Assembly (NCBI GenBank): GCA_016946835.1
Contig: JACVTC010000066.1
Coordinates: forward strand, 786,001 to 850,000
DNA from: Neocallimastix lanati (nom. inval.)
Lineage: Eukaryota; Neocallimastigomycota; Neocallimastigomycetes; Neocallimastigales; Neocallimastigaceae
DNA length: 64,000 nucleotides
Reading direction: 5' to 3'
This document shows positions 2,145 to 42,568 of the stretch, piece by piece (the stretch's first letter is position 1; each line of letters opens with the position of its first letter). The notes below the pieces were generated by a model. The model worked only from the letters and a program-made list of their open reading frames with translations, did not search any database and was not told the DNA's origin. The position numbers were made by a program, and so were the translations under genes.

Positions 2145-2553
2145 ATAATAATATTTAATAGTTATAATAAATAAATTTTTATAATATTTAATAATTTTAA
2201 TAATTTTATAATATTAATAGTTTATAATAATTTTTAGAATAATATTTAATTAATAATTTTAATAATTTTATAATAATTTTTATAATAATATTTAATTAAT
2301 AGTTTTAATAATTTAGTATCTTAAAAGTATAATTTTAATATTTACAATTGTATTTTAATATATACATATATTTAATAATATATCAATAAAGTAATTAATT
2401 AAAATTGATTACATTATTTACAAGTTAAAATTAATTTATATCAAAATAAATTAAATTTTATTATTAAGTTTAGGTTATCAAGAATATAGGAAAGTACAAT
2501 TTAGTAAAGAATTATTAATAATAAAATAAAGGTTATTAATTCATTCTTTACCA
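2145..2553 (-). repeat. Partial LTR, B family (B')
   Basis: This stretch closely matches the last 400 bp of the B-family LTR (26650-27051 and 34400-34799), including the terminal ATTCTTTACCA. The missing part would lie left of the copia insertion. It is the outermost visible member of the LTR stack. Confidence 0.8.
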
Positions 2554-2557
2554 AATG

Positions 2558-3106
2558 TGGTACATTATTTTTATATATTGTACCTTTTATATGATTTGGG
2601 GAAAGCAAGTTGTAAAATTATAAAATAATATATTCTAATAAAAGAAATAAATAAAAAATTATAACACAAAATTAATAATAAATTTTTAATAAATAATAAT
2701 GTGTTACTTTTAAGTCTTTATTTTATTTATAAGTTTTGTTCTTTAAATAAGTACATTTAATTTTATTATAACTTTATTATATCTTTAAATATATATTTTA
2801 ATAATAATATTAACCAAAATATCCTAAATATTTATTCACCCGAATAAATATTTTATAATTCCTATTCTAACTACTATATTCTTTAAAGATATTAGATTAT
2901 TAAGTTCCTCTTTTGTTAATATTTTATCTTTCACTTATTTTTATACTATAATTCTTATTGGTTATCTATTAATTAAAATTATTTTTATTAATATCATATT
3001 TTTATATACTAATTAAACCTTATACCTATTATAATAAAATAACTAAAGAATTATTTATTTTCTTATATCTTTAATAATTTATTCTATTTTAGTGAGTAAC
3101 GTACCA
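2558..3106 (-). repeat. LTR A, 3' copy
   Basis: Starts TGGTAC and ends GTACCA, an inverted pair. It matches 9913-10471. Lengths are 549 and 559 bp; the difference is mostly a short duplicated TTATCTTAAT-like stretch in the other copy. Confidence 0.9.
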
Positions 3107-3956
3107 AGACCCCCCACTTTGTCTAGACTTCGTCCCTTGAAGTCGTGATTTATGGATATAATGGATAAAAATGTTTATAAAAATTAAAAAAAATGTTATT
3201 ATATTCTTTAAATTTTTTTTTTTTTTTTTTTTTTATATTTGAACTATATAACTATATAAATTTTTTTTTTTTTTTTTTTTTTTTTAGGTAAGTAAATTGT
3301 AAAATTATGTTATATTGTTTATAAAATTTTATAAAATTATATACTTGTTTACTAATTTAATTTATATATATTCTGTCTATATATCTTTGTATATTTTAAT
3401 ATTATATTTTACTATTATATTTTACTATTATATTTTACTATTCTATTTTACTATTCTATTTTACTATTCTATTTTACTATTATAATCTATTATTATATTT
3501 TTATTATATTTTATTATTTATATCTAATAAAAGAAATTACTGGATTAGAAATGTGAATTAATTAATTAAACTTTTCAACAATAGCTAAATGTTTATTTTT
3601 GTAAGTTGAAATTCAAACGCGTTTTTTTTTTTTTTTTTTTTTGTCGTTATCTATATTCTGAAGATTATATAATTGTATTATTTATCTATCTCTATAATTT
3701 TTTTTTAAGGCGTGTTATTGTCAAGAAGTTATAGGTTGTATTAAAATATTTTTTTTTTTTTAGATAAAAACCATATTTATTTTATATATATTATTTTTTA
3801 ATTTATAATTGATAATAAATATTAATAAATAAAAAAAAATTCTTATGTAAATATTATTATTATTTTATCTACTTATTAAAAAAAAAACTTGCTATAAATA
3901 TTGTTTTAATTATTTAATAATTATTGTAAATATATTTATATTATCTGATAAGTATC
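3107..3956 (-). other. 3' untranslated region of element A
   Basis: Between the pol stop and the 3' LTR there is no coding sequence. It holds three long poly-T tracts (near 3217, 3260 and 3620), a run of ACTATTATATTTT-like units at 3405-3490, and the polypurine tract next to the LTR. Confidence 0.7.
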
Positions 3957-6900
3957 TTAGTCTTCATTTGTGAGGTTCAGTTCCGTAAAATATGGAATAA
4001 TATTCTTCAGGTGGATATTACGTTCTGCTATTTCACCAGTCGTTGGGTCGCATACTGTCACTGTGTTTAATTCTCTTTTAACAATATGTAATGGTCCTGT
4101 GAAGAATGGGTCTAGCTTCCTTTGATTAAATACTTTCACTAATACTAAGTCCCCTGGTTTATAGTCACTTCTCATTCTTTTGATTTGTTTCCTTCTATCG
4201 GACCAAAGTTTGTTTGCGGTTTCAATATTTCTTATGGCTTCCTTTATCCACTTATCATGTATCAAAAATTTTCTGAACCAGTACTCTTCATCACTTTCCC
4301 ATTCATTTTTCTTTTCAATATTAATGGATAATTCGAAAGGTTGCATATCACTCCTTCCATACAATAATTCGAAGCTACTGTGTTTTGTAACTTCACTTTT
4401 ACAAGTACGTAGTGCCCATAAAGCACTATATAAAGTCTCATCCCAATTCTTATCTTTTTTTCCCAGGATTCGTAGATATTTCCCAATTTCTTTGTTTCTG
4501 TTTTCAACTTCTCCATTCGAGGCTGGATGGTAAGTTGAAATATAGTGAACATAAACATCGTGTAGATCTAAGAATGCTTTTGTTTTATCTGCGGTGAACT
4601 GTGGACCATTGTCTGTTACCAGTATCTTAGGGATACCATGTCTTGAGAATACTTTCTTTAAAAAGTTTATCACGTCATCTGCTTCCGATATTACTAATGG
4701 TTCAGCCTCTACCCATTTGGTTAAATAGTCAACTAGAACAATTATAAATCTATTACCTCTTGGAGTTTCTGGTAGGGGTCCAATTAAATCGAGTCCAACT
4801 CTTGAGAAAGGGTATCCTGGAGGAGTGGCATTATCTTCTGGAAATTGATTTAATGTTTGTGGCTTACATGTTTGGCATTTGTAACAACATCGAATATAAT
4901 TATTAATATCCTTTTTCATATTTTTCCAATAATAATCTCTTTTTAGTCTGTTGTATGTTTTATATACTCCTTCATGGCCAATTTGATGAGCTTGATCAAT
5001 TAATATTAATTTTTCTTCTATGCTTTTCACTATGTACCTTAATTTATCGCCTTGTTTATAATATTCTTTGCCATCAATAATTATTATTCTTTTTTTGATA
5101 TAATCTTCTATAAATTTATTAATACTATTACTATTATTATTATTATTATCACTTATACCATTATCACTATTATCAACTTCATTATTATTGTTATATATAA
5201 TATTTATTGTTTCTTTAGGTTTATCAGAAGTTTCCAATCTAGACAGGGCATCAGCTATGACATTCTTCCTCCCCTCTTGATATTCGACTTTAACATTCAA
5301 GATGGATAATTCCGTAACCCATTTGAGATGTCTACTATTAGTAGGTTCACGATTATTAAATATACCAACAAGCGGTTTATGGTCAGTATAAACTATAGTT
5401 ATAAAAGAATTACCAGTGATAAATTGTTTAAATTTCTGAACACAATGGAAGACAGCTTTACCTTCCAGATCAGTAATACTATAATTTTCTTCCGATTTAC
5501 TTAATGATCTACTTTCATAAAAAATAGGAACCTCAAGATTATTTTTATCTCGTTGTAGAAGAACACCTCCTAGTCCATCTCTAGAAGCATCGGTATGTAT
5601 AATAAATGGTTTAGAAAAATCTGGGGGAGTTAATATAGGTGCTTGTATTAATTTATTTTTTAATTCTACAAATGCTTTAATACATTCTTCGGAAAAGTTA
5701 AATATCGAGTTCTTCTTTAAAAGGTAAAATAATGGTTTTGCTATTTGAGCAAAATTTTTAATAAATTTGCGATAATATCCTATAGCACCAAGAAAAGATT
5801 TAAGTTGTGTAGTATTTTTAGGTGGTAACCAATTAACAATTGTTTTTACTTTTTCCGGTATAGGAGAAATACCATCTGTCGAGAGCTTGTGACCAAGTAG
5901 TGAAACTTCTTTTTTAAAGAATGAACATTTTTCCAAATTAATTTTTAATCCATTGTCTTTTAGTATCTTAAAAACACGACGTAAGTGTAAAATATGTTTA
6001 TTTATATCTTTAGAAAATATAACTATATCATCAATATAAATAAATACACATTCACCGATTAATTCAAAAAATATTTTGTTCATTTCTCTCTGAAAGGTTG
6101 CTGGGGCGTTACATAAACCAAATGGCATTACTCTGAAGTTGTAATTGCCATACATTGTGGTAAATGCAGTCTTTTCTTTATCTTCGGGAGCCATTGGAAT
6201 TTGGTGGTATCCTGAAAAAAGGTCAATGGTAGACAGGATTTGTGAATTATTTCCGATTTGCAAAAGAATTTCATCGATTAAAGGTAATGAATATGAATCT
6301 TTAATTGTTATATTGTTTAATTTACGGTAATCAACGCACATTCTCCAATCTTTATTATTCTTTTTATGTACTAAGACAACAGGAAAGGACAAGGCAGAGA
6401 AAGACGGTTCAATCAACCGATTATTGATGAAAAAAAATGTAAGTATTTCTTTGAGAGCCATAGATTGAGCTTTAGAAAGTTTATATGCTTTCAGTTTTAT
6501 TGGTTTAGCATTTGGAATTAAATTAATTCTATGTGGTAATAATTTAGAAGTTCTGATATAAAACAAATATGTGTAGTAACATATTTGTATATTTAATATT
6601 AACTATTAAATATTAAATTTATATCTTTTTGATAATAATTATTTTATTTTATTTTATTTCAATATGTATTATTATAATTATAATAATTATAATACTTTAT
6701 TTCATATAAAATTTATATAGTTCTATATATTAGAATATATAATTAATATATTACCTATTTCTTATAAATTAAATTATTTATATTAGAAATAGAAAACTCT
6801 CTTGTAAATTTTTAGGAATTAGAATTATTATCTTAATTGTACGAATATTATAATATTATTAATAAAATTTACTAAACTGCAATTATTTAAAACCCACTGC

Positions 6901-8494
6901 TTATAAATTATTGCACATAAAAGTCCCGTATATCAGTTCCAAGGTCATCAGTCTTCACAGCTAATATGTCTTTAAAAATTTCGAATAGCTCTTTTATAGA
7001 GTTCTTATGTTCACTAGGTACGGCATTAATAATATCATTTATTAGATTTTCTTTAACATTAATAGTTTGTTCTAATTGTTTATCCTTATTCTGAATAACT
7101 ATAGTAAGTAGTAAGGGTGTAGATGCATTTGTGTTTTCTTTATTAATTTCTTCTCCTGAGTCAATTGGATTTTTCAGATTAATATTGTAGTAAAGGTCAG
7201 CTAATTTCTTGTAAGTATTATCTTCATTAATATAATATAATGAGTCATTAACTAGGTTAATATCAAACCTATTTTTCTTTAATGAATCAACTCCAATTAG
7301 AATGTCGAAAAGGTCATCTTTTTCAATTACTCTAAAATAATCTTGGAAAGTCTTGTCTCCTATAGTTATTTCTAGCTCATATATTTCGGATTCAATCGTC
7401 GAGTTTGAACAAGCTTGAAAAATAGTTTCTGAGATTCTTCCTATGGCAGGTTTGTTTATATTATATTTTTCTAAAGCAGATCTTGTAATAGCATTAACAC
7501 TAGCGCAAGTATCTAAAAATATCTCACAATTGGTATTTTCAACTTTTCCTTTTACTTTAATTATTTTAAATTTATTAACTATTGTCATCACATTATTAAT
7601 AGCATTACTTTTAAGAGTAAGCTTCAAAGCTTTACTAAATGCTGTTCTGAATTTTGGGAATAGATCAAGTAAGTATCCTAATTTAGTAATAACTTCAGTA
7701 GATGCAACTTCTTTTAATAGATCTTGTATTAAATAATCATCAAATTGTTCTATTAATTTAATATGTTTTTCTTTAGATTCTTTGTTGTTACTTAACGAAG
7801 GTGGAGATTTCTTTGCATTTTCAATAATATCTTTAATTCTTTCTTCATGATTGTTTCTTTTACTCGTTTTAATATTCTTCTCGGCTATAATTGAGGGATC
7901 TAAGTACTCCAATTTTTCGGTTTGATTACTATTAGAGGTAGTTTTATTATTTTTATCTAAAGTAGTATTCTTATCTACTGTATTTGTAGACTTATTTTTA
8001 TTAATTTCATTATTTTGTATACTATCTTCAATATCATCTTTAATCATAATTACATCTTCAATTGGTAAAGTATTAGTTTCCATATTTTGATCCTTTTGGT
8101 TATGCACCTTTTTTCCTTCATTAAGACAAGCGTCATATTTGTTGTTATGTCTCATAGCTGCTGTTTGAATCGGCGTCGGATTATTCTTTAATGTATCATT
8201 GGATTTCTCTCCATTATAAGGAATGGACCTTACGTTTTTTTCTTTTTGTTTTCTGACAGCTGGTGCAAGAACTTCAATTGGTTTATTAATATGTAAAGGT
8301 TGATAATTTGATATTGATTTATTATGGTTATTCATATTATTATTATTAATATATTTATTATTAATATTGTTACTATTATTATTAATATTGTTACTATTAT
8401 TATTAATATTTCTATTATGATGATAACAATTATTAGCATTGTCTTCCATGTGGTTGGTTTGTTTACTGGAAGTTATCCTTCTCCCATTTAGTGG
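3957..8494 (-). pseudogene. Pol of element A (PR-RT-RNase H-IN), split by an insertion
   Basis: Entered by -1 frameshift from gag at 8494. The N-terminal part is Asn-rich and carries a protease motif LDTCASVNAI at about 7500 (D-T-C in place of the usual D-T-G). Reading stops at 6908 inside an inserted 353-bp repeat, then resumes cleanly at 6566. The second part has RT (RMCVDYRKLN; catalytic YIDD near 6030), RNase H (HTDASRDGLGGVLLQ), an integrase zinc domain (H near 4985, CYKCQTC near 4880) and the integrase catalytic triad (LDLIGPL, TDNGPQF, GEVENRN). It ends with a GPL motif and no chromodomain. Outside the insertion the frame is open, so the break is recent. Confidence 0.9.
6564..6916. mobile_element. 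353-bp insertion in pol of element A
   Basis: The inserted DNA is flanked by ATAAAA on both sides (6558-6563 and 6917-6922), which looks like a target-site duplication. Removing it would join the two pol parts in one frame. The insert is AT-rich and noncoding, with TGTG near its left end and CACA at its right end, like a small solo LTR or MITE. A second, diverged copy lies at 50061-50447. Confidence 0.75.
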
Positions 8495-8500
8495 TTTAAA
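8468..8500 (-). promoter_or_regulatory. -1 frameshift site of element A (slippery heptamer and hairpin)
   Basis: Read on the minus strand, the gag frame ends TCT TTA AAC CAC TAA. T TTA AAC (8494-8500) is a classic X XXY YYZ slippery heptamer in the correct phase. Slipping back one base enters the pol frame directly. Eight bases later GGGAG can pair with CUUCC (one G-U pair) around an 8-base loop (8468-8485). Spacing and layout match known -1 frameshift signals and recur in elements B, D and E. Confidence 0.85.
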
Positions 8501-9669
8501 GATTTGTTGATCATTTCCCTTTCTTCCATTTCCGCTAATTGTTTGAACGAATAGGGGCAGTTTGAAGCCTTGTGCCCATTTTGGAAACAACGGAAACAAG
8601 TAGTTTTCCTATTTTGGTAGTCTTTATTAAAACTTTTATTATATTCCTTATTTGAAATAACCCCTGGATTTCTATTTATGGTAGTTGTAAATATATTAGC
8701 ATCAATACCGTTATTATTGTCATATACTTTACTATTTTGAGAAACTGCGGTAGCTATATTGTTGGTATTGTTATCGTTACTAATATTATTGTTTTTATAA
8801 TTGTAATTAGAGTTATTATTATTTTGCATTCTATTAGGTAAATAATTATAATTATAGTTGTTGTTATCCATGATATTATTCATATTTTGATTGACGTTAG
8901 TATTATAATTATTATTGAGGTTCATAAATCTTGAACCATTACTAAAGTTTCGGTTGTTCCTTCTAAAAGGTGGACGAAAATTATTATTGTAAACATTTCT
9001 ATTAGTACTTTGATTTATATTATGTTGATAAGAAGGTTCTCCATAAAAATTTTGATAAAATGGGTGATTCATTATAGGACTATCCAAATTTTGCACAAAC
9101 ATTAAATTAGATCTATTCTTATTATTATCTTGCCCAATATTACTAATTATTTCTTTTTCAGCTTCTTCGGATACTTCAGCTACCTTAAAAGCTTCAGATA
9201 AAGTTTCGCATTCGGTTGTCATAACTCTTGAACAAGGAAAGACCCGTGTACTTATAGCAGTAGTATAGTCCTTTATTGAAATTAGTTTTTGATATTCTCT
9301 TGGTAGGCCTTTATATAATATTTTATATCTATGATTAAATTTTTTTATAGTTTCTTTATTATTAATTTTTAATGATTTTAATACTGCACATTTATCATTA
9401 GGTGTGATGTGCAAGTACTCCTCAACGGCAGCTTGGATTTCTTTGAAGCTGGGATATCTAACTTCGTTTCCATTCTTACTTTTTAAAGAGTTTAAGGCCC
9501 CATGCATGTCTTCTTCGACTGCTTCTTTGGCCCAGACAAAAATTCTTCTTGGTTCCACAACATCGTAGAGCTCCATCACTCTGACGAATTCATGCATCCA
9601 TCCATCAACATCTTTTCCATAGTCGATGAGATTTGGTAATGCTTTCTGTAATTTGGCAGCGTGAATCAT
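8488..9669 (-). CDS. Gag of element A, with CCHC zinc knuckle
   Basis: A 393-residue structural protein of the virus-like particle. It opens MIHAAKLQKALPNL. A capsid-type helical region fills about residues 1-180, a long Asn/Tyr/Arg-rich low-complexity stretch follows (about 190-340), and a nucleocapsid zinc knuckle CFRCFQNGHKASNC (C-x2-C-x4-H-x4-C) lies near the end. The ATG at 9669 is 243 bases inside the 5' LTR and is the first in frame. The C-terminal end overlaps pol, joined by the frameshift site at 8494-8500. The frame is intact. Family assignment rests on position and the knuckle; the capsid fold is inferred. Confidence 0.88.
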   Translation of the reverse strand: MIHAAKLQKALPNLIDYGKDVDGWMHEFVRVMELYDVVEPRRIFVWAKEAVEEDMHGALNSLKSKNGNEVRYPSFKEIQAAVEEYLHITPNDKCAVLKSLKINNKETIKKFNHRYKILYKGLPREYQKLISIKDYTTAISTRVFPCSRVMTTECETLSEAFKVAEVSEEAEKEIISNIGQDNNKNRSNLMFVQNLDSPIMNHPFYQNFYGEPSYQHNINQSTNRNVYNNNFRPPFRRNNRNFSNGSRFMNLNNNYNTNVNQNMNNIMDNNNYNYNYLPNRMQNNNNSNYNYKNNNISNDNNTNNIATAVSQNSKVYDNNNGIDANIFTTTINRNPGVISNKEYNKSFNKDYQNRKTTCFRCFQNGHKASNCPYSFKQLAEMEEREMINKSLNH

Positions 9670-9892
9670 GATAAATAGAATTTATTAAAAAAAGTAATAT
9701 AAAATAGTTATATTTATTTATAATATAATAATTGTTTTGTAAAAAAAAAATGAAGAAACAAAAAAATAAAAATTGTTTTATAATAATATAATAAATGCTT
9801 TTGTACTATAAATATATAAAATAAAAAAAAAAGAATGAATTAAAGTAAAGTAATTTCTCTTATTATTTTCATATTATTTTATCTTGCTTCCA

Positions 9893-9908
9893 CCCGGATT
9901 CTCCACCA
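9893..9908 (-). other. Primer-binding site of element A
   Basis: On the minus strand, TGGTGGAGAATCCGGG starts 4 bases inside the 5' LTR. It begins TGG, complementary to a tRNA CCA end. Elements B, D and E start with the same TGGTGGAGA. The short leader (9670-9892) is otherwise AT-rich. Confidence 0.75.
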
Positions 9909-9912
9909 ATTT

Positions 9913-10471
9913 TGGTACGTTATTTTTATATATTGTACCTTTTATATGATTTGGGGAAAGCAAGTTGTAAAATTATAAAATAATATATTCTAATAAAAGA
10001 AATAAATAAAAAATTATAACACAAAATTAATAATAAATTTTTAATAAATAATAATGTGTTACTTTTAAGTCTTTATTTTATTTATAAGTTTTGTTCTTTA
10101 AATAAGTACATTTAATTTTATTATAACTTTATTATATCTTTAAATATATATTTTAATAATAATATTAACCAAAATATCCTAAATATTTATTCACCCGAAT
10201 AAATATTTTATAATTCCTATTCTAACTATTATATTCTTTAAAGATATTAGATTATTAAGTTCCTCTTTTGTTAATATTTTATCTTTCACTTATTTTTATA
10301 CTATAATTTATCTTAATTCTTATTGGTTATCTATTAATTAAAATTATTTTTATTAATATCATATTTTTATATACTAATTAAACCTTATACCTATTATAAT
10401 AAAATAACTAAAGAATTATTTATTTTCTTATATTTTTAATAATTTATTCTATTTTAGTGAGTAACGTACCA
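9913..10471 (-). repeat. LTR A, 5' copy
   Basis: Starts TGGTACG and ends CGTACCA. It matches the 2558-3106 copy apart from scattered substitutions and one indel of about 10 bp. On the minus strand this is the promoter-bearing 5' LTR. Confidence 0.9.
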
Positions 10472-10475: not shown

Positions 10476-11265
10476 TGGTATGGTTCATATAATTTTAGGA
10501 ATATAATAATAATTAACACAAATAATAAAATTACAATAAAAAAAAAAAATTTGTTTTAAAATCAATATTTATTTATTTAAATTTATAAAAGAAAAATAAT
10601 AATATAATTATTTATTTAATAAAAAGAAAGTTATTGATTATATTTTATTTCACTAAAAATTACATGTATTTATATTTTTTTATCAAATTAAAATTTGTAA
10701 AGCCTAACTATTTTTTTTAATAAACTAATTACTAATTATTTTTATAAATAAAACATTTAAATTGAAATTGAATTATTATTTTAGTTAATAATATTATTGT
10801 TATAAATAGTAGTTATATATTATTGAATTATTAATTATTTAATAATAGTTTAATACTAATATATATAAAATAAAAATAAAGAGATTATACAGAATATTTT
10901 ATTGAGGTTTAGTTAAATTTAGTAATTAAAAATAAATTTAAATTGATAACGAAAATTTTAATAACTAATTAAATAGATTTGATTATTTTTAATATAACAT
11001 AATACAAAAGAAATATAATATTAATTTATTAAGTGGGCAAGGACAATATTCTTGGCTAAAGATTTTTAATACATTATAACGGAATCGGATCGATAATTCA
11101 AAAAGGAATTATAAGTTAATTAGTGATTTATTAACTTAAGATTTCTATTTAGTAATATTTGAAGAATATTGGAAAGTTCCAATTATATAGAATAGAATAA
11201 TCTATAAGGTTAGAATAATTTATATTATTCTAGCACAATTAGTATTATTTGTTCATTCTGTATTA
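10476..11265. repeat. Solo LTR C1
   Basis: Starts TGGTATGG and ends CTGTATTA. Two other copies lie at 23538-24323 and 41696-42482, all close to 790 bp and nearly identical over their length. No internal sequence accompanies any copy, as expected after LTR-LTR recombination. It is flanked by (a)acaa on the left and acaag on the right. Confidence 0.88.
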
Positions 11266-11270: not shown

Positions 11271-12148
11271 TGATAAATTTTAGAAATTATCTTAATTTTA
11301 ATATAGAATTAAAAAGTGATAATTTCAATTTATTTTAATAATAACTATATAAGTTATTTATGAATTAAAAAAAATGTTTTATTAAAAATAACACTAAAAA
11401 TTTGGTTTATTAGAACACTTGTTTTCTAATATTTTATTTTATAAATCTTTTATTAAAATTTATTAAACATTATAAAAATTAAAAGTGATTATTAAAATTA
11501 TAAAATTAATTAATAATAATAATAATAATAATATTTACATGAAATATTTACAAGTATTTATATTTTTCTTTAAAATTAAACTATTTATAATTTATAAATA
11601 AAAAGAATAATTAAATAAAATAAAAGTAATAAAAATAATAATAAAATAAATATTTAATAATAAAATAAATAAATTTGTTTATTATAAAAATAATATTTAT
11701 AATAAAGCATATAATAATAATATAACTATTTTCTTTTATGTTTAATTTTTTTTTTTTTTTTTTTATTAGTAATCATTAATACAATTTTTAATCTGGAATT
11801 TTCCAAAGAAATAATTAATATTGATAAATTTAATATTAATAAAAGAATTATTGATAAGATTTTGATAAACTATTAAGAAAATTGATAAAATAAACTATAT
11901 AATATTGATAAGGATTTTAATAATAATAAAATATAGATAAGAATAATAAAAGTAGTATAGATAAGGAATTAATATTAAATACACTTTTTTAAATAGTATA
12001 ATTTAATTTGTACTAATTAGGAATATAGATGAATTTATTAGAATATAGAAAGTTCCAAAAGAATAAAGAATCAATTAATTTATTTAAGGGTTAAATAAAT
12101 CATTTAAGATGAATAACCAAAAGAACATTATTTGGGCATTCTTTATCA
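11271..12148. repeat. Probable solo LTR F
   Basis: An 878-bp AT-rich noncoding stretch between two stack junctions. It begins TGATAAA and ends TTTATCA, a perfect inverted terminal pair, with acaag before and acaa after. Its end (CATTCTTTATCA) resembles the ends of LTR families E and B. There is no second copy in the window, so this rests on termini and flanks. Confidence 0.65.
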
Positions 12149-13322: not shown

Positions 13323-13345
13323 CGATGCCCCCGCTAAGACTCAAG

Positions 13346-18551: not shown

Positions 18552-18599
<48 letters not shown>

Positions 18600-31807: not shown

Positions 31808-31844
<37 letters not shown>

Positions 31845-32074: not shown

Positions 32075-32443
32075 TTTAAAAAAAAACACACTTTTAAAAA
32101 AAAATAAAATAAAAAAAAAATTGTTTTATTAATTATTTAATTGCTATATTTTTATTTATTTATTTATTTATTTACAATTAAAATTATATATTTAAGTAAT
32201 TTATATCTCTAGTGAGACGTTTCCGGCTAGTGTATATTTAATTTTGCTATATACACCCGTACTCCCCCTCCTGGACACTAGAATAAATATAAATTAATAA
32301 ACTAGTTGGAGTGTTCACTATTCTTTCAAGCTAATAACCCCTTTCGTTTATCTTTACTTAAATAAAAAAAATATATACAATTATTTACAAAAAAAATTTT
32401 TTTTTAATATAGCAATTAAAAATATTTAAAAACACAAAAATTA

Positions 32444-32479
<36 letters not shown>

Positions 32480-33082: not shown

Positions 33083-33113
<31 letters not shown>

Positions 33114-33179
33114 TAATTTAATTTAATTTAATTCTATTAAATTTAATTTAAAAAAAATTATTCTCATAATTCCAAAAAA
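32075..33179 (-). other. Structured leader of element B
   Basis: Noncoding leader between gag and the minisatellite. Islands less AT-rich than the window hold near-perfect hairpins: GTGTATAT/ATATACAC (32230-32256), CTTAGTAT/ATACTAAG with a 6-base loop (32679-32700), CTAATCG/CGATTAG (32804-32822), ACTGC/GCAGT (32885-32901), and a 12-bp stem AGTTTTATTTGG/CCAAATAAAACT (32915-32950). A CAA-rich run follows at 32970-33025, and poly-T or poly-A tracts separate the blocks. Genomic-RNA functions such as packaging or translation control are likely but inferred. Confidence 0.7.
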
Positions 33180-33724
33180 AAATAAGTCCTAGTAGTTCCA
33201 ATTTCCTTCTTGGTCTTCTCCTTCTTGGTCTCTTCTTCTTGGTCTTCTTCTTGGTCTTCTTCTTGGTCTTCTTCTTGGTTTTCTTCTTGGTCTTCTTCTT
33301 GGTTTTCTTCTTGGTTTTCTTCTTGGTTTTCTTCTTGGTTTTCTTCTTGGTTTTCTTCTTGGTCTTCTTCTTGGTCTTCTTCTTGGTTTTCTTCTTGGTC
33401 TTCTTTTTCTTGGTCTTCTTCCACTTGGTTTTCTTCTTGGTCTTCTTTTTCTTGGTCTTCTTCCACTTGGTCTACTTCTTGGTCTTCTTTTTCTTGGTCT
33501 TCTTCCACTTGGTCTACTTCTTGGTCTTCTTTTTCTTGGTCTTCTTCCACTTGGTCTACTTCTTGGTCTTCTTTTTCTTGGTCTTCTTCCACTTGGTCTA
33601 CTTCTTGGTCTTCTTTTTCTTGGTCTTCTTCCACTTGGTCTACTTCTTGGTCTTCTTTTTCTTGGTCTTCTTCCACTTGGTCTACTTCTTGGTCTTCTTT
33701 TTCTTGGTCTTCTTCCACTTGGTC

Positions 33725-33756
<32 letters not shown>

Positions 33757-33768
33757 CTTCTTCTTCTT
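33180..33768 (-). repeat. Minisatellite (about 8 x 42 bp plus 12-bp units) in the B leader
   Basis: Read on the minus strand, the repeat could encode an acidic, Gln-rich product: 14-residue units VEEDQEKEDQEVDQ, then four-residue EENQ or EEDQ units, then a basic tail. A GAA run sits next to the PBS. The frame is open for over 180 codons in the sense direction of the element but has no ATG, so translation is doubtful. It lies directly after the PBS (33769-33785, TGGTGGAGATATCGGGG). Confidence 0.8.
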
Positions 33769-33789
33769 CCCCGATATCTCCACCAATTT

Positions 33790-34799
33790 TGGTAGACTCG
33801 GGGTTGACACTTAGATATTTAAAATCAAGCAGGGGGGGACGGGTATTACCCTGCTTTGATTTTAAAAAAAAAAAAAAAAATAATTCTTGATTAAAAATTA
33901 TTTATTTTTTTTATTAATATAAAAGTTTTTTATTTAAAGTACACACATTTAATTTTTAAGAAATTGTTACAATATTTATATTTTTTTATAAATTTAAAGT
34001 ATAATTAATTGTTTATAATTTAAGTAATTTTATAGAATTATTGAATTAATTTTATATCAATAATTCATTTTTGTTTTAATTTTTATAAATATAATAATAT
34101 AATATTCAAATATAATTTAATTAAAAATAATTATAAAATAAATATATAGAAAATAGTTTTTACTATTTTCCGTGATATTTTTAAGTTAAATAAATTGTTT
34201 TTAAAGATTAATATAATAAATTTAATAATCTTTAATTATTTTAAATAATACTTGTAATTATTTTCAAAATAAAATAAAATTTTTATAATATTTAATTAAT
34301 AAATTTGATAATAATAATTTTTATAATAAGTAAAAATTTTTAATAATAATTTTTAATAATAAATTTAATTAATAATCTTAATAATTTTATAATAATATTT
34401 AATAGTTATAATATATAAATTTTTATAATAATATTTAATAATTTTAATAATTTTATAATATTAATAATTTATAATAATTTTTAGAATAATATTTAATTAA
34501 TAATTTTAATAATTTTATAATAATTTTTATAATAATATTTAATTAATAGTTTTAATAGTTTAGTATCTTAAAAGTATAATTTTAATATTTACAATTGTAT
34601 TTTAATATACATATATTTAATAATATAACAATAAAATAATTAATTAAAATTTATTTACATTATTTACAAGTTAAAATTAATTTATATCAAAATAAATTAA
34701 ATTTTATTATTAAGTTTAGGTTATCAAGAATATAGGAAAGTACAATTTAGTAAAGAATTATTAATAATAAAATAAAGGTTATTAATTCATTCTTTACCA
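33790..34799 (-). repeat. LTR B, 5' copy
   Basis: Apparently identical to 26043-27051 except for a poly-A run near 33865. On the minus strand this is the upstream, promoter-bearing LTR. It is followed by caag, then by LTR D. Confidence 0.93.
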
Positions 34800-34803: not shown

Positions 34804-35437
34804 TGATAAATAATAATAATATATATTAAGAAATAGTAAAAGATTTTATAATATTTTAAATATTAAAATAATTAAATAGTAATAACTTAATAATAATCTT
34901 GTTCATAATATTAAATAATTATAATAATTTTTATTATTATAATAATATTATTTAATAATAATATTTATATGCATTTGATTGGAAAATATAGTTACACCAA
35001 CTATAATAATAATATAAATATAAAATTTTTTATATGGAATAATTAGTTCTTTAGAAATTAATTTATAAAATAATTATGAAATTTATTAAGAGAATTTATT
35101 TAGAAAAATAATGAATTTTAACAATTAAAAATATTTCTCAACGTTGTATAATCAACTATAAAAATATTAAATAAAAATTATTATTATAACAAATATATAA
35201 AGTTATAAACTATATTATTTATATTATAGTATTTAACTATTTTAATTATTTATAAAAAGAATTATAATATTTAATATATAGATTAAATATTATATAAATT
35301 TTTAATAAAACATTTTTTTTAAAATAATTAAGTAAATTTAAATATTAAATATCGGTAAAACTTGTTAAAATAAAACAAGGTAAAACGATATAAAATAAGT
35401 TTAAGAAAATAAAATAAATAATACCTTAAACTTATTA
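34804..35437 (+). repeat. LTR D, 5' copy
   Basis: Starts TGATAAATAATAATAA and ends AAACTTATTA. It matches 41061-41691. The PBS TGGTGGAGAACC starts 2 bases after it (35440-35451). Confidence 0.9.
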
Positions 35438-35530
35438 AGTGGTGGAGAACCTCATTCTACTCCCGGGAAAGCAAATTCCTTGAACATTTTTTTATTATTA
35501 CATTTTTAAACCCATTTCTTGTATTTCAAA

Positions 35531-36382
35531 ATGAGTAGTAGTTCTAGTAAATCTGTTAAAGATGACTATGAAAAGGCTTCTAATATGGCAAAGGATATTG
35601 AAGCTTTAGGTGCCAAGAACACAAAATTTTTCAGATGGAAAATGGAACTGGAAGACATTTTCGAAGATCTTAATCTATCTGAAAAAGAAAAGAAAAGAAT
35701 CAGTATTTCTACTACCACCGGCAAATTAAAAGAGTCTTGTACAAATATTTACTTTCAGAACAAAAAGTTATCCTTTGAGGAGTTTACTTCAAAGATTGAA
35801 AAATTAATTGATAATGGTAAATCATCAATTAAGAACCTTTCAAAACTCGAAAATATTAAAATTTCTAATTTAACAGTTAATGAATTTAACAGTGAATATA
35901 GTGACTTGCTACATGGAATATCTGATAGAGACAAACCATCTGTTGAAAGACAGATATTCCTGTACACTAAAGCCTTTAAAAGAAGAACACCAATTTTTAA
36001 TATTCTTTTAAATAAACAACCAAAATCCTTAGAAGATGCCATGAATTATGCTTTAAAAGCTGAAGAAACCATTAATGAATATGAGAGTGACGACGAAAGT
36101 GATTTTTACAAATCTAAAAAGAGAACCAACTTTTCAAGAAGAAGACAGTCAAATTCTAATAACTCAAGACTTTTCGAAAATAAAGACAAGAATGAAAAAT
36201 CAAAACAATCAAAAGAAGAATCCGATTTAGAAGCCCTCACCAAGAGTTTTGCCGAAATGAAGATTCATGTATGTCATCGTTGTAATCAGAAAGGTCACGA
36301 AGAACGCTATTTTCCTAACGAAATGACTGATCTCAACAAAGCTATTGCTTCTATTCTATCCTTACAAGACCATTTAAATTAA
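35531..36382 (+). CDS. Gag of element D
   Basis: The ATG at 35531 opens MSSSSSKSVKDDYEKA, about 93 bases after the 5' LTR. The product is about 283 residues: a helical capsid-like region to about residue 185, then a Ser/Lys/Asn-rich linker. The C-terminal knuckle reads CHRCNQKGHEERYF, so the fourth zinc ligand is Tyr instead of Cys, explainable by one G-to-A change. The frame is open to a TAA at 36380, just after the slippery heptamer. The mutated knuckle may impair RNA packaging in this copy. Confidence 0.85.
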   Translation: MSSSSSKSVKDDYEKASNMAKDIEALGAKNTKFFRWKMELEDIFEDLNLSEKEKKRISISTTTGKLKESCTNIYFQNKKLSFEEFTSKIEKLIDNGKSSIKNLSKLENIKISNLTVNEFNSEYSDLLHGISDRDKPSVERQIFLYTKAFKRRTPIFNILLNKQPKSLEDAMNYALKAEETINEYESDDESDFYKSKKRTNFSRRRQSNSNNSRLFENKDKNEKSKQSKEESDLEALTKSFAEMKIHVCHRCNQKGHEERYFPNEMTDLNKAIASILSLQDHLN

Positions 36383-36406
36383 TTAAGGGAAGTTCTCAAT
36401 CTTCCC
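36373..36406 (+). promoter_or_regulatory. -1 frameshift site of element D
   Basis: The gag frame ends CAT TTA AAT TAA. T TTA AAT (36373-36379) is in phase for -1 slippage and leads into a frame with no stop that continues into pol. Seven bases downstream GGGAAG pairs perfectly with CUUCCC around an 8-base loop (36387-36406). Confidence 0.88.
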
Positions 36407-39400
36407 ACCATATAAATAAAATTGAGACCTTCTCGGATAATGATACAGACACTGATGATAACTATTATGACTCAAAGGTCGATTATAAAAATCATAAAAA
36501 TATGTTAGAAGATCACATGACTGAAAATTTAGAAAAAAAAATTTTCCAAAATGATTTTTACCAATCAGAAAATGAGTATTCTTCAGAAAATTCTGATATT
36601 CTTGATTCTGATGATTCTACCACAGATCACGTGACTTCTTCAACCAATAAAAATGATATCAAAAACCTTATCTACGCTATCAAGAGAAAAGTTTCTGAAA
36701 CAAATTTTGAGAAAGATCACGTGACTAGCAAAAATAGTTTTAACAAAAATATGTCACGTGATGTAGCTGTACCCAAGAAGAGAAGGAACCTTAAAGAAAG
36801 TGCACTTCCTATTAGCACAAAGGCCACTCAATTGTTAGCACAACAAGAAAATCACGATATCGGAACATATCAACACAATAATTACCGTGGTGACAATACT
36901 ACTAAAAATAATAACACTGAAAGACTTGACATTCTAGACACGTCAATAATCAGTGGGAAAAACATTACTAGTGCCAAAAAGAAGAATAAAGAAATTAGAA
37001 ATAAAAGAAGACTTGGACCTGATGAAATAAATAAATCTTCAACAACTTTAGAAGACCCTCCAGACATTGAAATTGATGGCAACAAAACAAAAAGTAATTA
37101 TTACGACTTCCTTAGAACCATCCTAATGTTAGACAATAGGAAAGAATACGACCTATTTGATGCCCTTAATAATACTAACGCGGGAATCACGTTGCTCAGT
37201 TATTCGCAGTAAGTCCACTCCTTAGACGGCTATGTATCAAAGGTCTTAAATTAAATCCTAATGATATAAGGAAAATCAATTCTGTTCACCATGTGAATAT
37301 AAATGAAAACGATAGTGATTTCCTTATTAATATCTTTAAGAATATAAATTCAGAACCTTCCGATGATTCAAAGGCTCATCAAGACCCTGTTGAAAACCCC
37401 AAAGACAATATTAAAAGAATTAATGTACTTGGTAAAGCTGGCATTGCTTCCGTTATTGGTTCAGTTGACAAAAATATGGTTAAAGTCCTTGTCGATACGG
37501 GTTCTGAAGCTAATGTTATAACTACTTCCTTCTTTAAAATTATTGCAAAGAACCATAAAGTCCTTAAACTAGAAAGAAATTATTTCAAGGTTGCCGGAAA
37601 ACAGATTATTTCCTCAGATCAGGTCGTCCATCTATGTTTAAAATTTGAAAATTTAGATATTAATGTTCCTTTCTACATTTTAGATGATGATGACACTTCT
37701 TACGATATTATTATTGGTCGCCAAGTTCATAAGGATTATCGTTTATATATTGATCCTGACGACGATGCCTTATACAAAAAAACTGATTCTGGACCAGTTC
37801 TTGTTGCCCATCCTACGGATATTACTATTCCTGGAAACAGATTATACAGAATCTCTATATGTAATAGTACTAATGAACTACTTACTCTTTCAAAACGTTC
37901 AGATAATGATATTGAACTTAAAAATATTGATAACAAAAAATTAAATAATTTAATTAATGAATATAAAGATGTTTTAATCAATTCTATTGATGATGTTTCT
38001 GTCGCTAAAGCTGAACCACACTCCATTGAACTAACAAACAATAAACCAATTAAAATGAGACCTTATAAAACCTCTTTAGAACAATCTAATGCTCTCAAAG
38101 AAGAAATTATAAAACTGTTGAAGCATGGATTAATTGAACCGTCACACTCACCATGGTCTTTTCCCGTTATTCTCGTAAGAAAGAAAAATGGTAAATGGCG
38201 TATGTGTGTAGATTACAGAAGGTTAAATCAAATCACTATCAAAGACGCATATGCATTACCCTTTATTGATGAACTATTAGAATCAGTATTCGGTGCTAAA
38301 TATTTTTCTGCTATTGATCTCTTCTCTGGTTTTCATCAAATTCCAATGAATCCTAGGGATATTGAAAAAACTGCCTTTACAACCAAATACGGTAACTTCA
38401 ATTTTAAAGTTATGCCATTCGGATTAACCAACGCTCCTGCAACATTTCAAAGAGAAATGAATCGAATTCTTATGCCTCTCATTGGTGTCTGCTTGTTTGT
38501 TTACATGGACGATATTCTTGTATATTCTCCCACGTTGGAACAACACTTAAAGGATTTAGAAAAACTTTTTAAAATCCTTCGTGACAATAAATTTTCTATC
38601 AATATTGATAAATGTTCTTTTTGTAAGCATTCTGTTGAAGTTTTAGGTCATATGCTTACTGGTGAAGGTATTAAACCTGTTCCTTCAAAAGTTTTAGCCA
38701 TCATGTCCTGGGACATACCTAAAGATGTTTCTCAGCTTCGTTCTTTCCTCGGACTTATTAGTTATTATCGTAAGTTTATTCCTAACTTCGCTGGTTTCTC
38801 TAATTGTTTATATAAACTTACAAGTCCCAAAGTTCCTTTTGTATGGACTAATATTCATTCTGAAGCTTTCGAAAATCTTAAAAAGGCAATTTGTTCCAAT
38901 TCTGTGCTTAAATATCCTGACCCAAACCGTCCACTTATTATTCGTACAGACGCGTCCTCGTATGCAGTCGGTGCTGTTCTTTTACAAATTCAAGACTCGT
39001 CCAAGTTAGAATTTCCAATTTATTGTGTTAGTCGTTGTCTCAAAAATGCTGAAACTAGATACTCAGTTACGGAAAAAGAAGGTATTGCCGTTATTTTCGC
39101 TTTAAAAAAATTTCGTTCTTATATCTCTGCTTCTCCCTTTCCTGTAAAACTTTTTACTGATCATAAACCTCTTGTAGGTTTCTTTTATAACAGTATTCCT
39201 AATAAAGATCGTCATTTTAGATGGATTGCCATTTTTAACGAATTTCGAGTTGACCTTATTTATGATAAGGGTAAGAATAACGTTTTCGCTGATGCTCTTT
39301 CTCGTATTCCCTCTTCACAACATTTGAAAATTAATACCATTCACTCTATTCTTAGTAATGATGAAAGTAATGACGTTTCCTCATTTGCTCCTCCTAAAAT

Positions 39401-40543
39401 ATTAGAATATGTTAAAAAGAATTACTCATTTTATGATGGTTCTCTTGTTTTTCATGACAAATCTGGGAAGCTCCTTAAAGTTATTGAAGATGAGGATGTT
39501 AAATCTTCTCTAATCCGTAAAGCTCATCTTGTAGGCCATGAAGGTGTAGAAAAAACACTTTCTAGGTTGAAAGAAGCTTATTACTGGCCTGGTATGTATA
39601 AAGATATTGATAAATGTGTTAAATCATGCTTACGTTGTCAATGTTACCGTCCAAAACCGATTACTAAAAATCTTTCAAATATTCCCACTCCAGTCGAAAG
39701 ACCATTTGTTAGAGTTGGCCTTGACATAGTTGGTCCTCTCCCTATTACAAATAAAGGAAACCAATATTTAATTGTACTCGTAGACTATACAACAAAATGG
39801 GTTGAGGCTATGCCACTAAAAAATATTGAAAGTCAAGACGTAATATATTTTTTAAAGGATGTCTTTGCAAGACACGGTGTTCCAGAAATAATTGTAACTG
39901 ATAATGGTCCGCATTTTTTTTATCTGATATTACAAAAACAATGATAGACTTATATGGTTCATGGGTACAATTTGTAGCTCCACATCATCCTGAAGCTAAT
40001 GGACAGGTAGAAAATAGAAACAGAGAAATAATTAAAATACTAAGACACCTTTGTTTCAATCAAGAAAATTGGGATGATTATATTCCTGCTTCTTTATGGG
40101 CTCTTCGTACTACAAGATCTAGTGTTACTGGATTCAGTAGTTTCGAACTTCTCTATGGAAGGAAAGATTTATGGCCTCTTAGTGTAGTAATTTCCGATAT
40201 CAACAAAGCTAAAAACGAAACTAATGAAGAATACAATTTAAGAAGATTCATTTTACATCAAAAATGGGTTAAAGAAGCTATGGAAAATATTAAAAAAGCT
40301 CATGCCTACTGGTCACAAAGAAGTAAAGCAAGAGATAATATGAATCATAAATATAAGCCAGGAGATTTAGTGCTTGTTCGCTACATAGGAAGAAAAAAAT
40401 TAGATCCATTTTTCTTAGGACCATATAAAGTTTTAAAAGCATCAAAATATAATACCTTAATTCTAGAAACAATTGACACACATAAAATTTTAGAACGTAA
40501 CATACATATAAAAAATGTCAAACCGTACTTAGTATCAATATAA
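36379..40543 (+). pseudogene. Pol of element D (PR-RT-RNase H-IN), two frameshifts
   Basis: It opens with a Ser/Asp/Asn-rich region containing repeated GATCACGTGAC motifs in the DNA. A one-base frameshift near 37190 interrupts a segment whose correct frame (VAQLFAVSPLL) matches ITFGQLLDAAPKL of element B. It continues with protease VLVDTGSEANVI (DTG at 37494-37502), RT (KWRMCVDYRRLN, FVYMDD near 38510), RNase H (RTDASSYAVGAVLLQ) and the integrase zinc domain and catalytic core. A second frameshift in an eight-T run (39914-39921) lies just after TDNGP. The last frame gives the catalytic E (GQVENRN), a GPY motif (FFLGPYKVLK) and a stop at 40543. Homopolymer slippage or a sequencing error could explain the second break. 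Confidence 0.9.
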
Positions 40544-40608
40544 AAAAAAATAATAATAAATAAAAATAAATTTTAAATTGAAATTACTTTTGAGATCACT
40601 TTATTTTT

Positions 40609-40646
<38 letters not shown>

Positions 40647-40924
40647 ATATCCAATATTATCAGAAACTTACATTTTTATTTGAAAATTTCAGTAATATTA
40701 TTATAAATTAATAAAATATCCTTATTAATATCAATTATTTCATCAATAATACATTTATATGAAAACAAGACAAAAAAAAAAAAAAAAAAAAAAAAATTAT
40801 TATTAAAATTATTTCATTTATTTTTTTTAATTTTTTTTATTATTATATTTTTATAAAAAAAAAAAAAATTTTTTAATATTAAAATTATTTCATTTATTTT
40901 TTAATTTTTTTTTTTACTATATTT

Positions 40925-40966
<42 letters not shown>

Positions 40967-41060
40967 TTTAAATTTTAACAACCTTAAATTTATATTTTTC
41001 CTTATTATTATTATTTATTATTCTTTTCAGATATAAGTTATATCTTATGGGAGGAAAACT
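40544..41060 (+). other. 3' untranslated region of element D
   Basis: Noncoding, with very long poly-A tracts at 40613-40643, 40771-40796 and 40931-40962. A unit of about 75-110 bp ending in TTTTTATA plus poly-A is duplicated (40800-40870 and 40875-40965). It ends with the polypurine tract beside the 3' LTR. Confidence 0.7.
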
Positions 41061-41691
41061 TGATAAATAATAATAATATATATTAAGAAATAGTAAAAGA
41101 TTTTATAATATTTTAAATATTAAAATAATTAAATAGTAATAACTTAATAATAATCTTGTTCATAATATTAAATAATTATAATAATTTTTATTATTATAAT
41201 ATTATTTAATAATAATATTTATATACATTTGATTGGAAAATATAGTTACACCAACTATAATAATAATATAAATATAAAATTTTTTATATGGAATAATTAG
41301 TTCTTTAGAAATTAATTTATAAAATAATTATGAAATTTATTAAGAGAATTTATTTAGAAAAATAATGAATTTTAACAATTAAAAATATTTCTCAACGTTG
41401 TATAATCAACTATAAAAATATTAAATAAAAATTATTATTATAACAAATATATAAAGTTATAAACTATATTATTTATATTATAATATTTAACTATTTTAAT
41501 TATTTATAAAAAGAATTATAATATTTAATATATAGATTAAATATTATATAAATTTTTAATAAAACATTTTTTTTAAAATAATTAAGTAAATTTAAATATT
41601 AAATATCGGTAAAACTTGTTAAAATAAAACAAGGTAAAACGATATAAAATAAGTTTAAGAAAATAAAATAAATAATACCTTAAACTTATTA
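41061..41691 (+). repeat. LTR D, 3' copy
   Basis: Matches 34804-35437 with minimal differences. It is followed by caag and then LTR C3. Confidence 0.9.
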
Positions 41692-41695
41692 CAAG

Positions 41696-42482
41696 TGGTA
41701 TGGTTCATATAATTTTAGGAATATAATAATAATTAACACAAATAATAAAATTACAATAATAAAAAAAAAATAATTTGTTTTAAAATCAATATTTATTTAT
41801 TTAAATTTAAAAAAATAATAATATAATTATTTATTTAATAAAAAGAAAGTTATTGATTATATTTTATTTCACTAAAATTACATGTATTTATATTTTTTTA
41901 TCAAATTAAAATTTGTAAAGCCTAACTATTTTTTTAATAAACTAATTACTAATTATTTTTATAAATAAAACATTTAAATTGAAATTGAATTATTATTTTA
42001 GTTAATAATATTATTGTTATAAATAGTAGTTATATATTATTGAATTATTAATTATTTAATAATAGTTTAATACTAATATATATAAAATAAAAATAAAGAG
42101 ATTATACAGAATATTTTATTGTGGTTTAGTTAAATTTAGTAATTAAAAATAAATTTAAATTGATAACGAAAATTTTAATAACTAATTAAATAGATTTGAT
42201 TATTTTCAATATAACATAATACAAAAGAAATATAATATTAATATATTAAGTGGGCAAGGACAATATTCTTGGCTAAAGATTTTTAATACATTATAATGGA
42301 ATCGGATAGATAATTCAAAAAGGAATTATAAGTTAATTAGTGATTTATTAACTTAAGATTTCTATTTAGTAATATTTGAAGAATATTGGAAAGTTCCAAT
42401 TATATAGAATAGAATAATCTATAAGGTTAGAATAATTTATATTATTCTAGCACAATTAGTATTATTTATTCATTCTGTATTA
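41696..42482. repeat. Solo LTR C3, next to the tRNA gene
   Basis: Third copy of the C family. The left flank is acaag (41691-41695). The right flank is acaag followed by another caag (42482-42490), then TGTAAT and the tRNA. It ends 14 bp upstream of the mature tRNA start, the position typical of integration at a Pol III start site. Confidence 0.9.
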
Positions 42483-42496
42483 CAAGCAAGTGTAAT

Positions 42497-42568
42497 GCCA
42501 GCTTGGCTTAGTGGTAGAGCGTCGCTCTTGTAAAGCGAAGGTCGGTGGTTCGATTCCGTCAGTTGGCA
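42497..42568 (+). tRNA. tRNA-Thr, anticodon UGU
   Basis: A 72-nt cloverleaf with a 7-bp acceptor stem (GCCAGCT with AGTTGGC, one G-U pair), a D arm, an anticodon stem TCGCT/AGCGA with loop CTTGTAA giving anticodon UGU, a T stem GGTGG/CCGTC (two wobble pairs) with loop TTCGATT, and discriminator A. The internal promoter boxes are excellent: A box TGGCTTAGTGG (42504-42514) and B box GGTTCGATTCC (42547-42557). There is no encoded CCA and no intron. A TTTTT terminator follows at 42574-42578. It reads ACA codons. Confidence 0.95.

Follow-up and report, generated by a model that had tools for sequence, protein, structure and literature searches.

In the anaerobic gut fungus Neocallimastix lanati (nom. 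inval.), a long pile of LTR units leads up to a single tRNA gene, which raises the question of whether several retrotransposon families have repeatedly integrated at one spot beside a Pol III gene and, if so, in what order. The window, i.e. the whole stretch of DNA that was analysed, comprises 64,000 nt (GCA_016946835.1, JACVTC010000066.1, positions 786,001–850,000, forward strand) and contains the following features.

300..2144, + strand: 3' part of a Ty1/copia-type element that interrupts B' (Pfam RVT_2 frames 300-980 and 952-1677; 3' LTR 1856-2144 read from the sequence)
2145..2553, no strand given: B', a family-B solo LTR that is truncated and lies outside the tRNA register (97% identical to the final 411 bp of the LTR of B; B'/A junction 'aatg')
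2558..10471, - strand: full-length element A with LTRs at 2558-3106 and 9913-10471 (LTR pair; RT, RNase H, and integrase domains; flank test)
10476..11265, - strand: C1 solo LTR, duplication acaa (4 bp) (LTR comparison, junction reading, flank test)
11271..12148, no strand given: F solo LTR, duplication acaag (5 bp), seen only with E removed (junction reading, flank test)
12153..21185, - strand: full-length element E with LTRs at 12153-13322 and 20077-21185; duplication acaa (LTR pair, Pfam, junction reading)
21191..22972, no strand given: G solo LTR, duplication caag, nested insert from 22182 to about 22914 (junction reading)
22980..23536, - strand: H solo LTR, duplication agcaa (5 bp) (junction reading, flank test; native strand taken from the H-family element to the left of the window)
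23538..24323, - strand: C2 solo LTR, duplication acaa (LTR comparison, junction reading)
24328..26036, no strand given: I solo LTR, duplication aacaa (5 bp), nested insert J at about 25284-25987 with repeat AACTA (junction reading)
26043..34799, - strand: full-length element B with LTRs at 26043-27051 and 33790-34799; duplication caag (LTR pair, Pfam)
34804..41691, + strand: full-length element D with LTRs at 34804-35437 and 41061-41691; duplication caag (LTR pair; Pfam, including Ty3_capsid and Peptidase_A2B)
41696..42482, - strand: C3 solo LTR, duplication caag, the unit nearest to the tRNA gene (junction reading)
42483..42496, + strand: tRNA leader caagcaagtgtaat, the integration target used repeatedly (junction reading and flank test)
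42497..42568, + strand: tRNA-Thr(TGT) gene (Rfam 68 bits, full-length match to the tRNA model; ARAGORN 42496-42569)

Composition of the stack

Between element A and the tRNA-Thr gene, which is intact, the stack consists of 10 successive units (C1, F, E, G, H, C2, I, B, D, and C3; 32 kb) with spacers of 1–7 bp between adjacent units. A, E, B, and D are full elements, as defined by their LTR pairs, the solo LTRs C1, C2, and C3 belong to a single family, and the orientation of D is opposite to that of A, C, E, B, and H. All ten junctions quoted in the original prediction are present exactly as quoted, and the H/C2 junction, for which no bases had been quoted, is a 1-bp spacer ('a'). The predicted 14-bp gap between the stack and the tRNA gene was likewise found: C3 ends at 42482 and the Rfam tRNA-Thr start is at 42497, and these 14 bp constitute the leader. 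The proposal that twelve units share one register holds for the right end of A and the ten later units but fails for the left flank of A and for B', the left side of which has been cut by the copia-type 3' LTR (1856-2144). LTR-element DNA extends to the left beyond the window, where an H-family element has a frame at approximately -5635 to -2072 and a 3' LTR at approximately -2044 to -1488.

Judging from their domain content, the elements are assigned to the Ty3/gypsy type (Metaviridae) of LTR retrotransposons: RT, RNase H, and integrase domains were detected by Pfam and are arranged in this order, the LTRs are paired, and putative PBS and PPT sequences are present. In B, C, and E, the PBS (TGGTGGAGATATCGGGG) is complementary, in a by-eye pairing, to the 3' end of tRNA-Ala plus CCA, and a PPT-like sequence (AGCGGGGGCAT) adjoins the C LTRs. 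For P0001 (99% identity to B), the best solved-structure match is Ty3 Gag-Pol, 7q5b. No Pfam match to a chromodomain was obtained at E values up to 0.001 in 15 proteins, some of which are gag, copia, or partial frames. A structure model of a piece of the B integrase, which ends before the C-terminus, has a mean pLDDT of 72.4.

Target duplications, insertion order, and LTR divergence

When the units were peeled off from the tRNA side, the leader acaagcaagtgtaa was recovered each time (10/10 units). A 4- or 5-bp target duplication was found for every unit after peeling, compared with 8 of the 10 in the unpeeled stack; the chance of a random 4-bp match in this sequence is 0.0126. A single leader sequence thus accounts for all ten tRNA-side units, in agreement with the predicted repeated integration at one spot beside a Pol III gene. 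Eight LTR types have used this site, with 4-bp duplications in five of them.

The duplication of H becomes visible only once all five units nearer to the tRNA gene (C2, I, B, D, and C3) have been removed, and that of F only once E has been removed. Because the F and H duplications are interrupted by these nearer units, E was inserted later than F, and C2, I, B, D, and C3 later than H. Removal of the distal neighbour was needed for none of the ten units, and 8 of the 10 are compatible with either direction of insertion. The left flank of A did not match its right flank under any of the 11 removal states tried. The nested inserts in G and I lie within LTRs rather than at a Pol III start.

Age had been expected to rise with distance from the tRNA gene. 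The order read from the interrupted F and H duplications is in line with this expectation, but no clear gradient is seen in LTR divergence, which is too low to reveal one. The LTR pairs differ by 3 substitutions in 549 sites (A), 0 in 1009 (B), and 2 in 631 (D), and B, which is farther from the tRNA gene than D, is no more diverged (0/1009 vs 2/631; Fisher p 0.15). The E pair shows 0/735 in its unique part and 23/1109 when the low-complexity tract is included, with all 23 differences located before the unique 735 bp. Counted in full, these differences would make E more diverged than A (p 0.019), B (p 3e-7), and D (p 0.0025), but they are confined to that tract. Raw BLAST identities of the LTRs (97.0, 96.5, and 98.9%) were also discarded as an age measure, since the counting of gaps and repeats makes them misleading. 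Among the C LTRs, private differences, counted with 29 distinct copies among 39, number 4 in C1, 3 in C2, and 2 in C3, which is the expected direction, but the differences are too few and most comparison copies had been picked for likeness to C3.

Association with Pol III genes across the genome

In this one genome, from which all genome-wide counts were derived, 1,372 LTR ends of related families were identified (control 67). A Pol III B box follows at a set distance in 106 of them, compared with 0 in the control, and the 100 listed among these 106 comprise 43 tRNA genes, 54 tRNA-like units, and 3 unclassified cases. The use of tRNA-like repeats as targets suggests that the Pol III promoter itself, rather than tRNA identity, is recognized. 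Among the same 100, 42 of the 43 tRNA cases, which carry 11 tRNA labels, are located at 13–16 bp, as measured to the motif taken as the gene start with offsets of approximately -7 to +23 allowed (a 31-bp window). A further 577 ends meet an LTR-like start after 3–6 bp (1 and 2 in the controls, 3 together). Once these stacked ends, the 313 internal ends, the 106 Pol III ends, and the 67 of the control are deducted, approximately 309 of the 1,372 ends remain outside all counted classes.

Viewed from the gene side, an LTR-end-like motif occurs at 13–17 bp in 18 of the 24 tRNA genes sampled, whereas 12% would be expected. ARAGORN gave 34 genes having 300 bp or more upstream, from which 10 with another tRNA gene within 120 bp were excluded to give the 24; their loci were taken by contig order or from RF00005 candidates and are thus a non-random sample, and the RF00005 search, which scored 63 candidates only, does not represent a tRNA census. 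Both counts (106 vs 0 in the control; 18/24 vs 12% expected) contradict the possibility that LTRs of these families lie mostly away from tRNA genes elsewhere. At other loci, three copies of B and D have their ends about 14 bp away from a tRNA gene (tRNA-Ser twice and tRNA-Val once), and most others adjoin another LTR-like start; a G end was found 15–16 bp from tRNA-Asn (locus L010). An LTR-library scan that admitted low-complexity matches proved too noisy and was superseded by dust-masked scans and junction reading; in that noisy scan, an F end lies about 14 bp from a SINE-like unit (locus L040).

Family C is nearly orientation-locked, with 53 versus 2 cases among the 100 listed of the 106 genome-wide Pol III cases. 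At two copies (C755 and C113), RT is encoded on the strand opposite to the displayed direction of the C LTR, and family C thus runs away from the target gene, i.e. in a divergent orientation.

Explanations and relation to known Pol III-targeting elements

Very probably, several Ty3/gypsy-type families integrate at the start region of Pol III genes, approximately 13–17 bp before the mature gene, and the stacks grow on the gene side; the fixed distance, the 4–5-bp duplications, the tenfold use of one leader, the order of F and H, and the genome-wide association are shown by the present data. The aim of integration would be set by the gene and not by the DNA upstream of it, so that units would pile end to end with the distal ones being older. 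Each new copy would enter between the gene and the preceding copy and duplicate the same leader bases, a gene-side polarity that presumably applies also to units other than F and H, and many units would then shrink to solo LTRs, presumably via LTR–LTR recombination. By analogy with yeast Ty3, the anchor may be TFIIIB/TFIIIC on the promoter.

A different origin, in which the junction bases are parts of the LTR ends and the stack arose by tandem LTR duplication through unequal crossing-over, might be suggested by the same-family stacks found elsewhere (C-C-C in L049 and L050; C-C in L061, L062, and L067) and by A and B', which are out of register, so that some recombination or deletion probably happened. 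Genome-wide, however, the 200 junctions listed contain 97 distinct strings. Because the junction bases vary by locus, ACAA(G) represents local target DNA, which speaks against the possibility, considered in the original prediction, that it is intrinsic to the LTR ends. Moreover, adjacent units in the tRNA-Thr stack belong to different families, and the interrupted H and F duplications fit sequential insertion rather than tandem duplication, which makes this origin most improbable. It is hardly credible, too, that integration is directed by sequence, with a motif such as ACAAG being recognized by the integrase instead of a Pol III complex: the same 9–10 bp were indeed used by all ten units at tRNA-Thr, but junctions elsewhere are mostly other strings (AAAA, AAAT, ATCT, TTCA, and others), with ACAA, ACAAG, or CAAG in only 8 of the 200, and the constant feature is the distance to tRNA-type genes. 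Insertion everywhere followed by retention of mainly those copies just upstream of tRNA genes is very unlikely, given the spike at 13–16 bp within a 31-bp search window, the use of one leader ten times, and the few LTR-pair differences, which leave little time for selection.

Serial integration at Pol III genes is consistent with the stacked solo LTRs: at 10 of the 11 places compared, the two junctions flanking such an LTR have at least 3 bases in common. Based on all 200 listed junctions, the null mean is 2.7 places, and this count was reached in 0 of 20,000 draws. Similar layers are found next to many tRNA-type genes besides tRNA-Thr, so that a pile of this kind can serve as an ordered record of insertion.

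With their fixed short upstream distance and 4–5-bp target duplications, these elements work in the same mode as Ty3, DGLT-A, and Tj1; the host lineage is different, and the depth, family diversity, and orientation bias are unusual. Ty3 of Saccharomyces cerevisiae integrates at Pol III gene start sites under the guidance of TFIIIB, generates a 5-bp duplication, and has an integrase chromodomain, in contact with TFIIIB, that was newly recognized from structure (PMC8632968), and its insertions occur in both orientations (PMC5911963). The present elements share with Ty3 the Ty3/gypsy domain set, the best structural match (7q5b), and Pol III start-site integration, but in the stack eight LTR types occupy one site with 4-bp duplications in five, family C (the only family whose orientation was tallied genome-wide) is nearly locked, and the scanned proteins gave no Pfam chromodomain match.

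DGLT-A of D. discoideum is described as a Ty3/gypsy-type element without a chromodomain located 13–33 bp upstream of tRNA genes, a table footnote adding that earlier insertions are displaced by later ones at the same tRNA gene (PMC5006619), and as inserting in either orientation (PMC5911963). The element type, the short set distance, and serial insertion at one gene are shared, whereas the 2–32 total copies listed per DGLT-A family contrast with hundreds of LTR ends and deep stacks here, and the lack of orientation preference contrasts with the nearly locked family C. Tj1 of Schizosaccharomyces japonicus is an LTR element that inserts at Pol III start sites in one fixed orientation and generates a 5-bp duplication (PMC4600332); the present elements resemble it in these respects, but Tj1 lies in the direction of the target gene, whereas family C points away from it.

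No published account of such stacks in gut fungi was found in listings of the open-access literature. The chances are about even for the broader proposition that, in this lineage, most genes transcribed by Pol III, whether tRNA genes or SINE-type units derived from tRNAs, are permanent pads for at least eight LTR types, that ordered stacks and interrupted duplications provide a cross-family relative clock, and that the divergent orientation, the reverse of that of Tj1, is fixed in one family or more. Precise targeting of Pol III start sites is now extended to an anaerobic gut fungus, and the stacks display the expected long-run result of many families using one target, namely deep, ordered piles. 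Their insertion order can be read from the duplications without a molecular clock, and the nearly orientation-locked family C offers a handle on how integrase is placed on the Pol III complex.

Composition of the LTR stack

The window (C621:786001-850000 within the 199-Mb genome) has a G+C content of 21.2%, in agreement with the low G+C content of anaerobic gut fungal genomes. The following features were identified.

LTR-type features and the tRNA gene of the window
tRNA-Thr(TGT): sole tRNA gene found in the window (ARAGORN; Rfam 68 bits)
Elements A, E, and B, minus strand: full-length LTR elements upstream of tRNA-Thr with Ty3/gypsy RT, RNase H, and integrase domains
Element D, plus strand: full-length LTR element upstream of tRNA-Thr with the same domains
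C1, C2, and C3: solo LTRs of a single family (C), between or beside the full-length elements
F, G, H, and I: solo LTRs, likewise between or beside the full-length elements
B': truncated LTR in the same stack
300-2144: copia-type element with a 3' LTR

Among 36 homologues of the element B protein, only P0027 (identity of 59% across 28% of the query) bears a name indicative of an organism, its code, Orpsp1, denoting the anaerobic gut fungus Orpinomyces. On the basis of this match and the base composition, the host is probably a member of that group. tRNA-Ala is the apparent primer of families B, C, and E, their primer-binding sites having been judged by eye. No 5' LTR counterpart of the copia-type element was found in the 7 kb searched to the left. 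An H-family Ty3/gypsy element lies to the left of the window, with its 3' LTR at about -2044 to -1488 (loci L131, L132, and L133; C621:779001-786010), and is followed within about 2 bp by a further LTR-like start (TGTAAG); the LTR pile seems to continue leftward. LTRs G and I each hold a nested unit (at 22182-22914 and 25284-25987, respectively), and the two units resemble each other at their ends. The one in I is flanked by a 5-bp repeat (AACTA) and the one in G by a longer repeat of about 10-12 bp (TTAGACAGAA), which differs from the LTR insertions.

Shared register and order of insertion

Unit borders were defined by LTR-pair comparison and from copies elsewhere, and units were then removed singly from the tRNA side, with one duplication collapsed at each step. 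By this procedure, exact target duplications were found in all 10 units from C1 to C3 (C1, F, E, G, H, C2, I, B, D, and C3), with lengths of 4 bp (C, E, G, B, and D) or 5 bp (F, H, and I). All ten fall in one short leader, (a)acaagcaagtgtaa, and the probability of a random 4-bp match in the local sequence is 0.0126. Repeated integration at one spot, as originally proposed, is supported for these ten units; the register does not take in all twelve. The left flank of A (aatg) matched the right flank in none of the 11 removal states, so that the register stops within A, probably as a result of a deletion or of recombination with another copy of A.

When neighbours were left in place, the duplications of eight units matched, the exceptions being F and H. 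That of F was restored by removing E, and that of H only when C2, I, B, D, and C3 were all taken out, indicating that F is older than E and that H is older than all five proximal units. None of the ten units requires removal of a distal neighbour. The interrupted duplications of F and H, together with this absence, are direct evidence that new insertions joined the stack at its tRNA-proximal end; for the remaining eight units, either order is compatible with the data.

The expected rise of age with distance from the tRNA gene holds for F and H, but dating by LTR divergence did not extend it. LTR pairs differ at 3/549 (A), 0/1009 (B), and 2/631 (D) positions, and those of E at 0/735 in the unique part or 23/1109 when a low-complexity tract is counted. 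Apart from that tract the pairs are near-identical, and their differences do not resolve the insertion order (B versus D, p 0.15; B versus A, p 0.04). The numbers of differences private to C1, C2, and C3 (4, 3, and 2, respectively) follow the predicted trend weakly.

The alternative that ACAA(G) is an intrinsic part of LTR ends was ruled against: 97 distinct strings occur among the 200 listed of 577 LTR/LTR junctions, and ACAA, ACAAG, or CAAG account for only eight of these 200. The two junctions flanking one solo LTR share at least three consecutive bases in 10 of 11 pairs (six sharing only A runs, for which the pooled null allows, two of them coming from one stack on contig C38), compared with a mean of 2.7 under random pairing, where 10 was reached in 0 of 20,000 draws.

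Association of LTR ends with Pol III-type genes

The right-hand LTR end TTCATTCTKTAYYA, a query that covers family B, family C, and LTRs (such as E) with TATCA at the end, but not A, D, F, G, H, or I, matched 1,372 sites genome-wide, compared with 67 for the reversed control. The ends continue into an element interior in 313 cases (control, 0), reach TGRTA or TGTWA 3-6 bp on in 324 and 253 cases (controls, 1 and 2), and reach a Pol III B box 45-75 bp on in 106 cases (control, 0); about 309 fall outside all classes after subtraction of the classes and the control, with slight double counting possible because a few ends may be in two classes. Of approximately 992 outer ends (1,372 - 313 - 67), about 574 are followed by an LTR-like start, and 106 lead up to a gene of the Pol III type. 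Among 100 of these 106 listed, 43 are tRNA genes (11 labels assigned from motifs, part of them confirmed by ARAGORN on fetched loci), 54 are tRNA-like units, and 3 are unclassified. The gap from LTR end to presumed gene-start motif, in a search permitting offsets of about -7 to +23, is 13-16 bp in 42 of the 43 tRNA cases and 19 bp in the remaining one.

The predicted tie to tRNA genes was also recovered from the tRNA side. In a scan of 34 ARAGORN tRNA genes in fetched loci, made with no LTR library and excluding 10 with a tRNA gene just upstream, an LTR-end-like motif precedes 18 of 24 genes by 13-17 bp (12.3% expected; p 2.7e-12, in non-random loci); individual matches may be due to chance because the motif is short. 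In 30 family C loci inspected by eye, several being copies of one another, 10 LTR copies precede a tRNA or tRNA-like unit, 9 enter an interior, and 11 adjoin an LTR-like start. Among 20 D and 20 B flanks fetched by position, one tRNA-Val (D) and two tRNA-Ser genes (B) were found about 14 bp away, three flanks of each family run into interiors, and, as judged by eye, most of the other 31 lie no more than about 8 bp from an LTR-like start; at least one D flank (L110) is ambiguous.

One class of tRNA-like targets (GCCATGTTGG...) includes 5'-truncated copies with a shared 3' body (L015, L020, L024, L033, and L037), as expected for SINEs. Others (classes S3-S10) comprise several families with A- and B-box-like stretches; six loci tested (L048, L051, L055, L056, L063, and L069) gave no Rfam tRNA match. 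Such targets lie at a similar distance from LTR ends (11-19 bp to the chosen motif) and may be SINEs.

tRNA-Cys/tRNA-Gly tight pairs occur in loci L075-L080 and L088. In six of these seven loci, an LTR-end-like motif lies 13-16 bp from the Cys gene; in L076, the gene has a tRNA-Ser upstream instead. Near-identical tRNA genes also form a large cluster (C555:170732-399007), some about 540 bp apart; the cluster gene, read in two copies elsewhere (L009 and L010), is tRNA-Arg, with tRNA-Asn directly upstream.

Proposed mechanism and orientation

Pol III targeting of this kind is already described for Ty3, DGLT-A (PMC5006619), and Tj1 (PMC4600332), and the integrase of yeast Ty3 is described as being held at the Pol III start by TFIIIB (PMC8632968). 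By analogy, the observed positions, duplications, order of F and H, and genome-wide association are most simply explained if promoter-bound factors hold the integrase, presumably by protein contact, at the presumed Pol III start site. An incoming copy would land in the leader, displace older copies outward, and duplicate the same bases, and solo LTRs would be left by LTR recombination, the probable route. The dictyostelid elements are similar in that earlier insertions are displaced by later ones, according to a table footnote (PMC5006619). No report of such stacks in gut fungi was found in a search of the open-access literature. What is unusual here is the depth (ten insertions sharing one register), the use of one site by eight LTR types, the inclusion of tRNA-like repeats among the targets, and a divergent orientation bias.

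As to orientation, the Tj1 authors state that they are aware of no further wild-type LTR element with a fixed orientation (PMC4600332). Of the 100 listed Pol III cases, 53 are family C in one orientation; in a genome-wide count made for this family, the opposite orientation occurs twice. The two patterns match different LTR ends, which may differ in conservation. The RT of family C is encoded on the other strand with respect to the LTR direction displayed (contigs C755 and C113), and C is thus directed away from the gene. D has the same direction as the gene at tRNA-Thr and at a tRNA-Val. I is reversed 17 bp from a tRNA-Gly (L081), and at another locus (L094) one D copy is followed by a reversed B, indicating that the orientation lock is not universal among families.
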